DNA of 64,000 nucleotides, taken from contig JASJCI010000006.1 of the NCBI GenBank assembly GCA_030066085.1, positions 1 through 64,000 on the forward strand. The letters run 5' to 3'. The notes beneath the pieces were generated by a model that saw nothing but the letters and a program-made list of their open reading frames with translations, had not been told where the DNA came from and searched no databases. Positions within the stretch are counted from its first letter, which is position 1. Each line of letters opens with the position of its first letter. Shown in pieces: positions 59,082 through 64,000 of the stretch. The DNA comes from Gammaproteobacteria bacterium (GTDB taxonomy: Bacteria > Pseudomonadota > Gammaproteobacteria > GCA-001735895). The position numbers and the translations under genes were made by a program.

Positions 59082-59123
59082 TTGATATCGATCAAGACCC
59101 GCGCCCGACGCCTGTGCTATTTT
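59082..59123 (+). promoter_or_regulatory. Perfect FNR/Anr/Dnr box and extended -10 before the haemerythrin gene
   Basis: TTGATATCGATCAA (59082-59095) matches TTGATNNNNATCAA exactly. TGCTATTTT gives an extended -10 (hexamer 59118-59123) whose centre is 32 bp from the box centre, class II geometry. The start codon follows at 59161. Control by low oxygen or NO is predicted. Confidence 0.85.
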
Positions 59124-59160: not shown

Positions 59161-59637
59161 ATGGCCCTGCTCGAATGGCGCGACGAGTACCTGACGGGTA
59201 TCCGCGGCGTCGACTACGAACACGAGGAGCTGATATACCGTATCAACGCGGTCTACGCATTGATCCAGGGGTCGGACGATCCCGCGGTCGTGGTCGACGG
59301 ACTCGGCGAAATCTATGGTCGCATTGCCGCACACTTCGCCCTCGAGGAGCGGATGATGTTGCGCTACGACTATCCGGACTACGCAGCGCACCGTGACGAC
59401 CACGAACACCTGCTGGAAAGGCTGCGCGCGACGGTCGACAGCTGGCGGAAGTTGCTGCGTTTCGATCGCAGCGCATTCGAATTCGATCTGCGCAGCTGGT
59501 TCGAACACCACTTCGGCACCCACGATGCGCGCCTGCACCACTCCGCCGGCATGCGCGAACACGACCCCGTCAGCGATTCGACCCTGCGCAAAATGGTCGA
59601 AAACGAAAAAGCCGGCCTGATCGATCGGCCGGATTAA
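59161..59637 (+). CDS. Bacteriohaemerythrin
   Basis: The 158-residue four-helix protein carries a complete di-iron set: H21, H58, E62 (HFALE), H77, H81 (HRDDH), H117 and D122 (HFGTHD). It begins with the typical EWRDEYLTGIRGVDYEH. Such proteins bind O2 or NO and in some denitrifiers handle NO. The perfect FNR-type box upstream fits that. An extra His-rich C-terminal helix extends it past the usual 135 residues. Confidence 0.93.
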   Translation: MALLEWRDEYLTGIRGVDYEHEELIYRINAVYALIQGSDDPAVVVDGLGEIYGRIAAHFALEERMMLRYDYPDYAAHRDDHEHLLERLRATVDSWRKLLRFDRSAFEFDLRSWFEHHFGTHDARLHHSAGMREHDPVSDSTLRKMVENEKAGLIDRPD

Positions 59638-59748: not shown

Positions 59749-60261
59749 TTACTCGGCACCGGTAACGACAAAACCGGTTTTTTGGTCGAAACCGACCAGC
59801 AGGACGCGCGCCGGGGCAATGCTCACATCGCGCTCCAGGCGCAGGTTGAAGCCCTGCTCGCGTACGCTGTCGTTGAGGCCGAGGGCGAGACGATGGTCGC
59901 CGGCGGGTATCCTGGCGCTGAAGTAAATGTCGACACCACCGTCTTCGAACAGGCCTGGCGGTTGCAGGGTTTCGCGATACAGTATCTCGCCATCGAGCCG
60001 CGCCTCGATCGTGACCGGGGAACGTTCGCGCGGACAATCCTCGAGTCTGCGCATATTGGCCGGCAACTGGTTCAACTCTTCCTGGCTCAGCCGGCGGCAG
60101 GGTTCACGCAGCTGGCCGGCGTGAGCGAAGGCAATCGTCAGCACGGCTTCATCATCGTCGAGGATCCTGATCGAAGGCGAAGTCGCGAAGTAGCAGACGA
60201 TTGCCATGAAAAGCGCGTAGTTGAACGCCTGCAGCAGGAACCGGAGCGGCTGCCGGCTCAC
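59749..60261 (-). CDS. Hypothetical membrane-anchored protein coupled to the cytochrome b fusion
   Basis: The 170-residue protein starts at a GTG that overlaps the upstream stop (GTGA). One N-terminal helix (FLLQAFNYALFMAIVCYFA) anchors an exported beta-rich domain with Cys at about 54 and 76 that could form a disulfide. It resembles accessory proteins found beside such electron-transfer genes, but no name is certain. Confidence 0.75.
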   Translation of the reverse strand: MSRQPLRFLLQAFNYALFMAIVCYFATSPSIRILDDDEAVLTIAFAHAGQLREPCRRLSQEELNQLPANMRRLEDCPRERSPVTIEARLDGEILYRETLQPPGLFEDGGVDIYFSARIPAGDHRLALGLNDSVREQGFNLRLERDVSIAPARVLLVGFDQKTGFVVTGAE

Positions 60262-61796
60262 GATGCCACCCACTCCTCTCTTTCGGCTCGCAGCAGCGCG
60301 AGCCGCGCGCGAAATCGCTCGAGGTCGCGCTCGACTGCGCGCAGGTCGGTTTCGGCCGCACCGTGCACACACACGCGTTGCCGTTCGGCCCGCGCACGCA
60401 GCGTGGGCTTGCGCTCGCCGGCAAAGCGCGCCTTCAGCCAACGGTTGCCGAAGCGATAGTAACAGTCGTTTTCGCGGCAACCGACGACCATTACACCGTC
60501 CGCGCCCTGCTTGAGCGCGTACTCGACCAGTGTCGGCGGCAGCATGCCGCTGCAGATCAGCCTGACGCCAGCGGTATCCGCACGCGCGACACGGTCCACA
60601 TCGAGTCCGTGCGCGCAGCCGTACACCACGATCTTTTCATCGCCGCTGAGCGCGGCAACTGCCTCGCGCGTTTGCCGGCGCATGTCGTCGACCGGCTGCT
60701 GCGGCATATCGATGCCGGTTTCGAGCGTATCACGCGCGGAGCGAAACGGGTTCGACGCCGGGCAGGCGCCGGCGCAGATACCGCAGGAACCGCACAGATC
60801 CGGATCGACGACAACTTCCTGCTCGTAGCGCGCGCCGTCGGTGCGCGCCTGCACCGTAATCGCGTCGAACGGGCAGTCTTCGAAGCAGATACCGCAGCCG
60901 TTGCAGTGTTCGAGATCGACCACCGCCACCGGTTCCTTTTTCTTCGGCGGCAGCCACGGCAGCAGCATCAGCAACACCGTGATGCCCGTGGTCAGCATCC
61001 AGATCTGCTGCGGCGGCCAGACTTCGAGCAGCGGATAAACATTGAGGTAAAACCAGTCGATCTGCAGCGCGCGCGGTACGCTCTCGAGGTCGGCGGGGCC
61101 CTGGCTCACCGCGGGCGCCCACAGCGACAGCGCGACGAGCGCGAGCAGGGTGCCGACGGCGAGTCCGCGCGGTGGATGGATATTGACGTTGGACAGGCGT
61201 TTGACGTGCAGCCACAGCAAAAAGACCAGCAGCAGCGGCTGCCCAAGCAGGTGCAGGAATTCGATCAGGATGAAAAAGCGGTCATTCATGCCGCCGGAGA
61301 CGAAGTTACGCGTCATCGCACCGGAAAAAATCGGCAGCGCATCCAGCAGGCGCGCCGAGCCGATGGCGATGTACTGCGCGAGCTCGTCCCATACGAGCCA
61401 GTAACCGGTAATGCCGAGCGTCACCACCATCCACAGGGTCGGCACCCCGGTAAACCACGAGAACCAGCGAAAACCGCGGTAACGCCCCGATGCAAATTCC
61501 TTGAACAGGTGCAGCAGGATCGTGACTACCACCGCATCCGATGCATAACGATGCAGGCTGCGCATGACACCGGCAAGATACCACTGTTCGTGCGTCATCC
61601 ATTCAACCGATGCATAGGCACCCTCGAGGCTTGCGTGAAACGGGATGAACAGGTAGATACCGGTTACGAGGATGATCCAGAACAGGAAGAAGGACAGGGT
61701 GCCGAGATGGTACAGTGGATTCCAGTCAGTGCCGAATGACAGGTTGAACCAGGATTCGAGCGCCAGGTAGGCGCGTTTTACCGGGTTGACTCGCAC
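60258..61796 (-). CDS. Cytochrome b6-type / 2x[4Fe-4S] ferredoxin / MvhD-like fusion protein
   Basis: The 512-residue membrane protein has three parts. Residues 1-285 are a cytochrome b N-terminal domain with bis-His haem ligands H82/H182 and H96/H197, spaced 13 and 14 residues within their helices as in b6. Residues about 290-350 hold two 4Fe-4S motifs (C298-x2-C-x2-C-x3-CP; C335-x2-C-x2-C-x3-CP). Residues about 385-460 match the MvhD/FlpD hydrogenase iron-sulfur subunit, with C394, C415, C440 and C445 in ICSGMLPP and VVGCRENDCYYRFGN. Electrons could pass between quinone and a soluble carrier. GTG start. An FNR-type box lies 65 bases upstream. Confidence 0.9.
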   Translation of the reverse strand: MRVNPVKRAYLALESWFNLSFGTDWNPLYHLGTLSFFLFWIILVTGIYLFIPFHASLEGAYASVEWMTHEQWYLAGVMRSLHRYASDAVVVTILLHLFKEFASGRYRGFRWFSWFTGVPTLWMVVTLGITGYWLVWDELAQYIAIGSARLLDALPIFSGAMTRNFVSGGMNDRFFILIEFLHLLGQPLLLVFLLWLHVKRLSNVNIHPPRGLAVGTLLALVALSLWAPAVSQGPADLESVPRALQIDWFYLNVYPLLEVWPPQQIWMLTTGITVLLMLLPWLPPKKKEPVAVVDLEHCNGCGICFEDCPFDAITVQARTDGARYEQEVVVDPDLCGSCGICAGACPASNPFRSARDTLETGIDMPQQPVDDMRRQTREAVAALSGDEKIVVYGCAHGLDVDRVARADTAGVRLICSGMLPPTLVEYALKQGADGVMVVGCRENDCYYRFGNRWLKARFAGERKPTLRARAERQRVCVHGAAETDLRAVERDLERFRARLALLRAEREEWVAS

Positions 61797-61832: not shown

Positions 61833-61874
61833 ACTCTACCGGAACGGTCGCGAAACCGATCTGATAAATATCAA
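61833..61874 (-). promoter_or_regulatory. FNR/Dnr-type box and -10 before the cytochrome b fusion
   Basis: On the minus strand TTGATATTTATCAG (61874-61861) matches TTGATNNNNATCAA at nine of ten defined bases. TAGAGT (61838-61833) is a -10 candidate with its centre 32 bp away, again class II. The 115-base gap between sco and the fusion gene therefore holds a separate regulated promoter. Confidence 0.7.
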
Positions 61875-62701: not shown

Positions 62702-63628
62702 TCAGCCCAGCAACCAGACGTCGAGCACCGCACCCGAGAGCAGCAGAACCAGCTGCAGCAGTGACGCGGCGAAGCAGCGCATCGCGACCCGTGGCGAAGG
62801 ATCGCCGACCATCAGCACATTGTGGTAGATGAAATACCCCCCGCCGCCGATCGCGGCCAGCGCGTAGATCCAGCCCATGCCATAAAACACCGGCGCAATC
62901 GCGCAACCCACCAGCATCAGCGTGTTGAGCAGCACGATCTCGGCACAACGCTGGTTACCGACGACGATCGGCAGCATGGGTACGCCGGTCTTGGCGTAGT
63001 CCTTGTGCTTCGCGATCGCAAGTGCCCAGAAATGCGACGGTGTCCAGAAGAACAGTGCGAGTGCGAGCCAGATCGGGATCGGGCTCAGATCGGGATCAAC
63101 CGCAGCCGCGCCGGCGAGCACGGCGAAGCTGCCCGATGCACCGCCGATGACGATGTTGGTCCACGAGCGACGCTTGAGCCAGACGGTGTAGACGATCGCG
63201 TAGGTGAAGGCGCCGAGAAAAGTATACAGCGCGCTCGACAGGTTCAGCCACCAGGCCGCCGGCAGCAGGCCCGCCGCCAGCAACAGCAGGATGACACCGA
63301 GCCAGAGCGGGCGTTTCTCGAAATAGCCGGTCACGAACGGCCGCCGGCAGGTGCGCGGCATGCGCCGGTCGAGATCGACTTCCCAGTACTGGTTGAACGC
63401 ACCCGCGGCACCGGAAGCGAGCAGAATCGAGAAGCACAGGACCGCCATCTCGAAACTGCTCGGCGCCGGGCCCGGGGTCGCGATCATCGCCGCCAGTGCG
63501 GTCAGCACCATGATGATGCCAATACGCAGCTTGAGCAGGCTCGAGACCTGGCTCCAGAGCTGCCGCAGGCGCGCCGGCGCGGTGGCCGGCGCGCGTGGCG
63601 CGGTTTCGGGGATCAGCTGAGCGGCCAT
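62702..63628 (-). CDS. cyoE: Protohaem IX farnesyltransferase
   Basis: The 308-residue UbiA-family membrane enzyme converts haem b to haem o. The Asp-rich site is NQYWEVDLDRRMPRTCRRP, with the second region SPIPIWLALALFFWTPSHFWALAI and KHKDYAKTGVPMLP. Nine helices are visible. The ATG at 63628 overlaps the oxidase stop by 16 bases. Its presence implies that the upstream oxidase uses haem o or a. Confidence 0.95.
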   Translation of the reverse strand: MAAQLIPETAPRAPATAPARLRQLWSQVSSLLKLRIGIIMVLTALAAMIATPGPAPSSFEMAVLCFSILLASGAAGAFNQYWEVDLDRRMPRTCRRPFVTGYFEKRPLWLGVILLLLAAGLLPAAWWLNLSSALYTFLGAFTYAIVYTVWLKRRSWTNIVIGGASGSFAVLAGAAAVDPDLSPIPIWLALALFFWTPSHFWALAIAKHKDYAKTGVPMLPIVVGNQRCAEIVLLNTLMLVGCAIAPVFYGMGWIYALAAIGGGGYFIYHNVLMVGDPSPRVAMRCFAASLLQLVLLLSGAVLDVWLLG

Positions 63629-64000
63629 ACCGATGCCAGGTAATCCCAGTTGATGAAGTAGTAGACGACGAAACACACCAGCAGAAACATCGCCAGCACG
63701 AAGGTCCCGGGCGCCTCGAAACCCGCCGAACCGTGCTCTTCCACCGCCAGTTTTGGTGCCATCGGCAAACGCTCCGGCTGCTCCACCGTGTACGAAGACG
63801 GTGCCAGCGGCACGCCGAATCCCTGCAACAGGCCGGCGGACTCGTCGAGCTTCTTGCCGAACAGCAGCGAACCCACGGTAACGACCAGGTACATCACGCC
63901 GCCGAGCACGCCGAGTACGCCGCCGATACCGGCGACGGCCATCATCGTGTAGGCCGTACCCGGATATTCGAAGGCCAGCATCGCGCCGGTGAAATCCATA
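63613..64000 (-). CDS. Haem-copper oxidase superfamily subunit I, C-terminal end (partial)
   Basis: About 128 residues run off the right edge. One helix (AYTMMAVAGIGGVLGVLGGVMYLVVTVGSLLFG), a periplasmic or cytoplasmic loop and a last helix (FVLAMFLLVCFVVYYFINW, then DYLASVWPLS) resemble the end of subunit I of haem-copper oxidases or NO reductases. The active-site helices are outside the window. The downstream cyoE and sco favour a cytochrome c oxidase or a related enzyme with CuA. Confidence 0.72.
   Translation of the reverse strand, partial: MDFTGAMLAFEYPGTAYTMMAVAGIGGVLGVLGGVMYLVVTVGSLLFGKKLDESAGLLQGFGVPLAPSSYTVEQPERLPMAPKLAVEEHGSAGFEAPGTFVLAMFLLVCFVVYYFINWDYLASVWPLS

Follow-up and report, generated by a model that had tools for sequence, protein, structure and literature searches.

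Enzymes of the eNOR family are a widespread, little-studied source of N2O; this poorly studied group of haem-copper NO reductases is predicted to conserve energy, and the expected electron donor to the CuA centre of subunit II is cytochrome c or a cupredoxin. In subunit I, eNOR is marked by a Gln that replaces the cross-linked Tyr, and gNOR is listed with an Asp at the active-site position (PMC8756737). CcoG (RdxA/FixG), which has two [4Fe-4S] clusters and a periplasmic Ig-like domain and is encoded just after the genes of the cbb3 oxidase, reduces Cu(II) (PMC7558416), and CrpH is a diheme PepSY_TM protein that supports haem-copper oxidases (PMC13038864). In the window, i.e., the whole analysed stretch of 64,000 nucleotides at the start of contig JASJCI010000006.1, we characterized a gene for a cytochrome b–2x[4Fe-4S]–MvhD fusion protein that shares an operon with an eNOR-type enzyme. 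A search of the open-access literature by domain names yielded no description of this fusion; the main paper on NOR families lay outside that search and may mention the gene. As a companion of eNOR, the protein is apparently undescribed so far.

A bc1-type cytochrome b with an iron-sulfur tail

The fusion gene (60258..61796, minus strand) opens with GTG and is free of stops across all of its 512 codons. The encoded protein comprises a bc-type cytochrome b core (residues 27-289; 60930..61718), recognized by Pfam PF00033, fold match and hhalign, two [4Fe-4S] ferredoxin motifs (residues 292-347; 60756..60923), and an MvhD/FlpD domain (residues ~389-503; 60288..60632). The respective Pfam matches are Cytochrome_B at residues 27-201 (E 1.8e-14), two Fer4 at residues 292-347 (E 7e-12) and FlpD/MvhD at residues 410-500 (E 6e-15); a PF02662 score of 55.8 bits, against a gathering score of 22.3, assigns the C-terminal domain to the MvhD/FlpD family. 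The haem ligands H82-x13-H96 and H182-x14-H197, the eight Fer4 Cys, and the MvhD residues C394, C415, C440 and C445 are all invariant in 27 diverse aligned orthologues, and both bis-His pairs were found by motif in 110 out of 111 long copies of a wider set that includes paralogues. The alignment thus bears out what an earlier note on this DNA had read from the letters, namely four haem-ligand His with b6-like spacing and two full ferredoxin motifs; of the three MvhD wordings quoted there, the domain is confirmed, whereas only scattered residues are invariant (C and P, G and GC, and C..R.G, respectively). We likewise found one membrane-bound chain that joins a diheme core of the bc type to a soluble Fe-S portion of low potential.

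The core, which the earlier note had assigned to b6, retains the b6 haem spacing, whereas its extent is that of a complete bc1-type unit through helix F. In the AlphaFold2 model (mean pLDDT 83.5), residues 11-285 superpose on complete cytochrome b of bc1 as far as helix F (257 residues at 3.0 A; best Z 21.5). Residues 24-289 align by hhalign (E 5e-16) with the bc1-type cytochrome b of the same genome, which is encoded by a separate gene on contig C50. The fold and two bis-His pairs on helices B and D place the core in the bc1/b6f cytochrome b superfamily, and it exceeds the b6 unit by spanning helices A-F, including a portion equivalent to the beginning of subunit IV. In the hhalign alignment, I-D247-W248-F falls on the PEWY position, where the bc1-type cytochrome b of this genome has P-V-W-Y, and the Asp-Trp pair is invariant across the aligned orthologues. 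The protein shares with bc1/b6f cytochromes b the fold, the b6-spaced His pairs and an Asp-Trp-Phe/Tyr at the PEWY position, but it differs from them in that the core ends after helix F and is fused to an Fe-S tail in the cytoplasm. In place of the Cys ligand of haem cn in b6 it has H30, a position that varies among orthologues. No gene for a Rieske protein or cytochrome c1/f was recognized in the conserved operon, so that the protein does not classify as part of a bc1/b6f complex. The best NCBIfam match of the core is the model NF040969 of the Rieske-free ExtP/ExtQ-type b cytochromes, whose cut-off of 290 bits lies far above the 92 bits obtained; these cytochromes further differ in that the core described here forms one chain with a cytoplasmic Fe-S tail.

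Taken as a unit, the [4Fe-4S]2-MvhD tail matches positions 571-772 of the HdrA2 model NF040770 (87 bits). It resembles the C-terminal region of HdrA2 and MvhD in the order of modules, two [4Fe-4S] followed by MvhD, and in the four conserved Cys, but lacks the flavin part of HdrA and is joined to a membrane cytochrome instead of an Hdr or Mvh partner. Indeed, the only FlpD domain in the whole genome is that of the fusion protein, whose own tail is also the best match of the HdrA2 model within the genome, and HdrA/B/C or hydrogenase partners that would define an Hdr/Mvh electron-bifurcating system were not recognized. The earlier note had named a characterized hydrogenase or Hdr beside the homologues as a reason to doubt a new function; none was recognized in the neighbourhoods read.

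The fusion protein was found in 25 out of 41 genomes of the order and in 34 out of 369 genomes of the class (25 out of 271 genera), most of the surveyed genomes being MAGs, and it is nearly always a single chain. Full-length one-chain orthologues with 45–82% identity occur in Gamma-, Alpha- and Betaproteobacteria and in Magnetococcales. Relatives numbered at least 572 in a scan of named genomes; the top 80, for which taxa are given, belong to Gammaproteobacteria, Magnetococcales, Rhodospirillales, Hyphomicrobiales and Burkholderiales; the gammaproteobacterial carriers among these 80 include Thioalkalivibrio denitrificans, Sedimenticola, Thiogranum, Sulfuriflexus and Parabeggiatoa. Since all intact orthologues consist of one chain, a frameshift artefact joining two genes, about which the earlier note had cautioned, is ruled out, as is a chance junction; the lone split copy (L082) reflects a frame break within that assembly.

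Operon context and the haem-copper partner

We called genes at 36 long and 80 named loci; names of neighbours given without a family match rest on reading of their sequences. The consensus gene order is a small single-TM gene, coxII, coxI, (ctaB), SCO, the fusion gene, and a gene that we call c3. Among loci with room for the respective gene, SCO lies upstream of the fusion gene in 84 out of 96 and coxI in 71 out of 81, whereas c3 is the next gene downstream in 91 out of 103. CtaA-like genes are found nearby in 20 of the 50 loci with long flanks. In the analysed contig, the genes of the consensus order are all on the minus strand. The fusion gene is preceded by a gene for an SCO1/SenC copper chaperone whose C-terminal part includes a hydrophobic segment (PF02630; 61912..62691) and by ctaB (62702..63628), which encodes haem O synthase (protohaem farnesyltransferase) as judged from sequence and synteny. 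Its counterpart is annotated cyoE / heme o synthase in a Defluviimonas plasmid (NZ_CP156080.1), whose annotated gene order matches that of our contig. The gene coxI, with the motif GHSSQQ, occupies 63613-65346 of the contig (its 3' part, 63613..64000, is in the window), and upstream of it, beyond the window, lie coxII (65348-65887, by gene call) and a conserved 59-aa single-TM ORF that heads the operon (65901-66080). This ORF, kept in 39 of 40 displayed loci (consensus 'DNPFLLLFLGVxMPTVFYIxWGIMEI'), resembles small subunits like IIa of the ba3 oxidase.

Every subunit I with a readable active-site stretch carries GH(S/A/P)SQQ(I/V)N, whereas ba3 oxidases have GHPIVY there, and the neighbouring subunit II has a complete and fully conserved CuA motif. 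With H-x3-Q in subunit I and a cupredoxin CuA subunit II, the enzyme of this operon is, by sequence, an eNOR-type predicted NO reductase; gNOR is ruled out by the Gln, rather than Asp, at the active-site position. Outside the Proteobacteria, the closest plasmid-borne homologues are those of Thermus thermophilus (near nirS) and Thermomicrobium (GHGAQQ, 44–45% identity), whereas a Tyr-bearing Haloarcula ba3 shows 32% identity. In contrast to these non-proteobacterial eNOR loci, the proteobacterial operons add ctaB, SCO, the fusion gene and c3. No gene similar to the fusion gene was found near the eNOR-like genes of Thermus and Thermomicrobium, and therefore eNOR as such does not need this protein.

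Among the 369 genomes of the class, 34 have the fusion gene, 33 have coxI, and 32 have both. The one genome with coxI only has it at a contig end, and in the two genomes with the fusion gene only, it lies on short contigs truncated upstream of it. The fusion protein is a near-constant genomic companion of eNOR in Proteobacteria. The earlier note had proposed a neighbourhood survey and regarded a missing soluble partner as the key; the survey instead places the partner that matters, an eNOR-type haem-copper enzyme overlooked at the time, in the operon itself. In Magnetococcales, the pair of the fusion gene and c3 is found apart from eNOR, beside the cd1 nitrite reductase gene nirS in the loci examined, and coxI is located elsewhere in most of the genomes with such a standalone pair. 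Haem d1 genes are present on the window's contig at 70.7-75 kb.

The c3 gene (59749..60273, minus strand), which overlaps the 3' end of the fusion gene, codes for a protein of ~174 aa (150-185 aa in the family). Its model (pLDDT 95.8) has a TM helix at residues 8-31 followed by a beta-sandwich, which by topology would be periplasmic. C59, C80, R82 and R84 are invariant, H51 and N73-M74-R75 nearly so, and a haem motif is absent. In two loci (L074 and L160) c3 is fused behind the cytochrome b–Fe-S protein. In some Rhodospirillales (L144, L156, L168 and L169), c3 has an extra N-terminal TM segment and a length of ~240-249 aa. The best structural match, to the luminal domain of HGSNAT, is weak (Foldseek E 5e-4, Z 8.9) and silent on function. 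The combination of two [4Fe-4S] clusters, a membrane part, a TM helix with a beta-sandwich (c3) and a position behind haem-copper genes recalls CcoG. The membrane core is, however, unrelated to that of CcoG and binds two haems. Neither the fusion protein nor c3 has a FixG_C Pfam match, the fusion protein falls outside the CcoG family by sequence, and the genome's own CcoG, with FixG_C, is encoded elsewhere. The pair thus appears to follow the domain logic of CcoG without any sequence relation.

Further genes recur around the operon. A second COX1-family protein of ~460 aa (HCO2; contig 68491-69891, plus strand; L061:10734-12104), which often follows the fusion gene and c3, retains the helix VI His and HYH haem ligands and has lost both helix VII CuB His; this conserved CuB-less haem-copper relative lies nearby in 29 of the 50 long loci. 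Three hemerythrin-like proteins are encoded around the eNOR operon (59161-59637 and 66549-67025, plus; 69946-70494, minus). A conserved secreted protein of 160 aa, c10, paired with a second SCO (contig 67027-67515 and 67512-68171, plus), recurs in some ten loci, where the pair is oriented divergently to the eNOR operon.

Regulatory boxes and exchanged tails

We scanned for the pattern TTGAT-N4-ATCAA with at most one mismatch. A FNR/Dnr-type box, TTGATATTTATCAG (61861..61874, minus strand), lies between SCO and the fusion gene, ~65 bp before the start codon of the latter. Such boxes precede the fusion gene in 41 out of 111 loci, usually at 70-130 bp from its start codon, compared with 5% of random stretches. 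Within 500 bp before coxII, ahead of the small first gene, they are found in 40 out of 65 loci. Additional boxes on the window's contig are located at 66216, which like that at 61861 has one mismatch, and at 59082, where an exact box precedes the first hemerythrin-like gene. With up to two mismatches allowed, the contig has 14 matches versus 4 expected. The boxes fit control by FNR/Anr/Dnr in response to low oxygen or NO and, being present before roughly one in three fusion genes, are consistent with the low-oxygen switching that the earlier note had supposed, which is not proof of either.

A few paralogues combine the same type of membrane core with other tails. In locus L060, a protein of 846 aa carries a CysJ-like flavodoxin-FAD-NADPH tail, whereas BenC-like Fer2-FAD-NAD tails were found in L062, L170 and L173, and at contig edges in L063 and L213. 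At the cut-offs used, the CysJ form occurs in one out of 369 genomes, as does the full-length BenC-like form, the tail of which is present in one more. The cores of the CysJ and MvhD forms in L060 (L060:4672-7212 and L060:11650-13236) are identical over 864 bp of DNA and diverge exactly at the module border, and immediately ahead of the start codon they share just 9 bases. This points to recent gene conversion at that border, unless the duplication was introduced by the assembly. In L060, the gene for the CysJ form is part of a series of copper-delivery genes (PCuAC-like, CtaG-like and SCO, the first two named from their sequences), and the slot before c3 that the fusion gene usually occupies is held in L173 by the NAD(P)H form. 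A special PepSY-fused origin of the L060 CysJ tail was rejected: its close relative in genome G302 has no second membrane domain and looks like an ordinary CysJ. Both CysJ and BenC tails oxidize NAD(P)H, and for this reason electrons most likely enter this type of core at its tail, on the cytoplasmic side.

Possible roles of the fusion protein

By analogy with these paralogues, electrons would flow from tail to core, and the protein probably supplies eNOR with electrons from inside the cell, for assembly or for work. A cytoplasmic donor, either ferredoxin or else a flavoprotein that binds to the MvhD domain, would reduce the [2Fe-2S] MvhD site, from which electrons may pass through the two [4Fe-4S] clusters to the inner and then the outer b haem, to be delivered near the periplasmic face, where c3 would sit. 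Our leading reading, to which we assign a probability of only about 0.4, is that of an accessory membrane reductase dedicated to the eNOR of the same operon and most likely serving its reductive maturation. The delivered electrons would then reduce Cu(II) or the thiols of CuA or SCO, or serve to modify haem, in concert with SCO and CtaB from the adjacent genes and, in many loci, with CtaA, so that an unrelated membrane core would do the job that CcoG does for the cbb3 oxidase. We favour maturation because the gene is placed among assembly genes, because the CysJ form is encoded among copper-delivery genes, and because of the precedents of CcoG and CrpH, the latter being likewise a diheme membrane reductase tied to haem-copper enzymes, albeit of another family and without an Fe-S tail. 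Several observations speak against it. The whole bc1 fold and the invariant Asp-Trp exceed the needs of a plain metal reductase, and the gene often has its own FNR-type box and stands apart from eNOR in Magnetococcales. Moreover, the genome also encodes CcoG, and the eNOR-like genes of Thermus and Thermomicrobium have no such gene nearby.

The invariance of the quinol-site Asp-Trp is also the reason why electron supply to quinone or to eNOR ranks close behind maturation. The protein might provide respiratory input, by reducing quinone with electrons from ferredoxin or NAD(P)H or by donating directly to eNOR through c3, so that a low-potential donor in the cytoplasm would feed NO reduction, which we regard as possible though unlikely. 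This role would explain a full bc1-type core with tails of the ferredoxin or NAD(P)H-reductase kind and an operon and regulon common with eNOR, and c3 could sit between the outer haem and CuA; it fits poorly with the expected donors of the fully conserved CuA, cytochrome c or a cupredoxin, with a c3 devoid of a haem motif, with the loss of the haem-cn Cys of b6 and with the placement among assembly genes. In the reverse flow, quinol would be the donor and the MvhD domain would connect the quinone pool with a low-potential partner in solution; the earlier note had centred on this quinone route but left its direction open. A bc-type core with an MvhD docking domain and the chemolithotrophic Gammaproteobacteria among the carriers would suit it, but no Hdr, hydrogenase or other FlpD partner was recognized in the operon or genome, the protein is strictly paired with eNOR, and the NAD(P)H-oxidizing tails of the paralogues argue for entry at the tail, which makes this direction improbable. 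Finally, the protein could sense or scavenge NO near eNOR through its Fe-S clusters and haems rather than move electrons for it, in line with a neighbourhood of hemerythrin-like proteins, FNR/Dnr-type boxes and a haem-copper paralogue without CuB. This appears very improbable given that every cofactor ligand of a continuous electron path is invariant and that NAD(P)H tails imply turnover.

The most far-reaching possibility is that a new class of Rieske-free bc-type cytochromes carries electrons of cytoplasmic ferredoxin or NAD(P)H across the membrane and via c3 directly to the periplasmic side of eNOR, fuelling or switching on NO reduction from the cytoplasm, a reading that we consider doubtful. 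The ferredoxin/MvhD, CysJ-like and BenC-like tails on one core amount to a natural experiment in wiring cytoplasmic reductants to a bc-type core. The fusion protein and c3, almost inseparable from the proteobacterial eNOR, would be unrecognized requirements for NO reduction or for the making of the enzyme.
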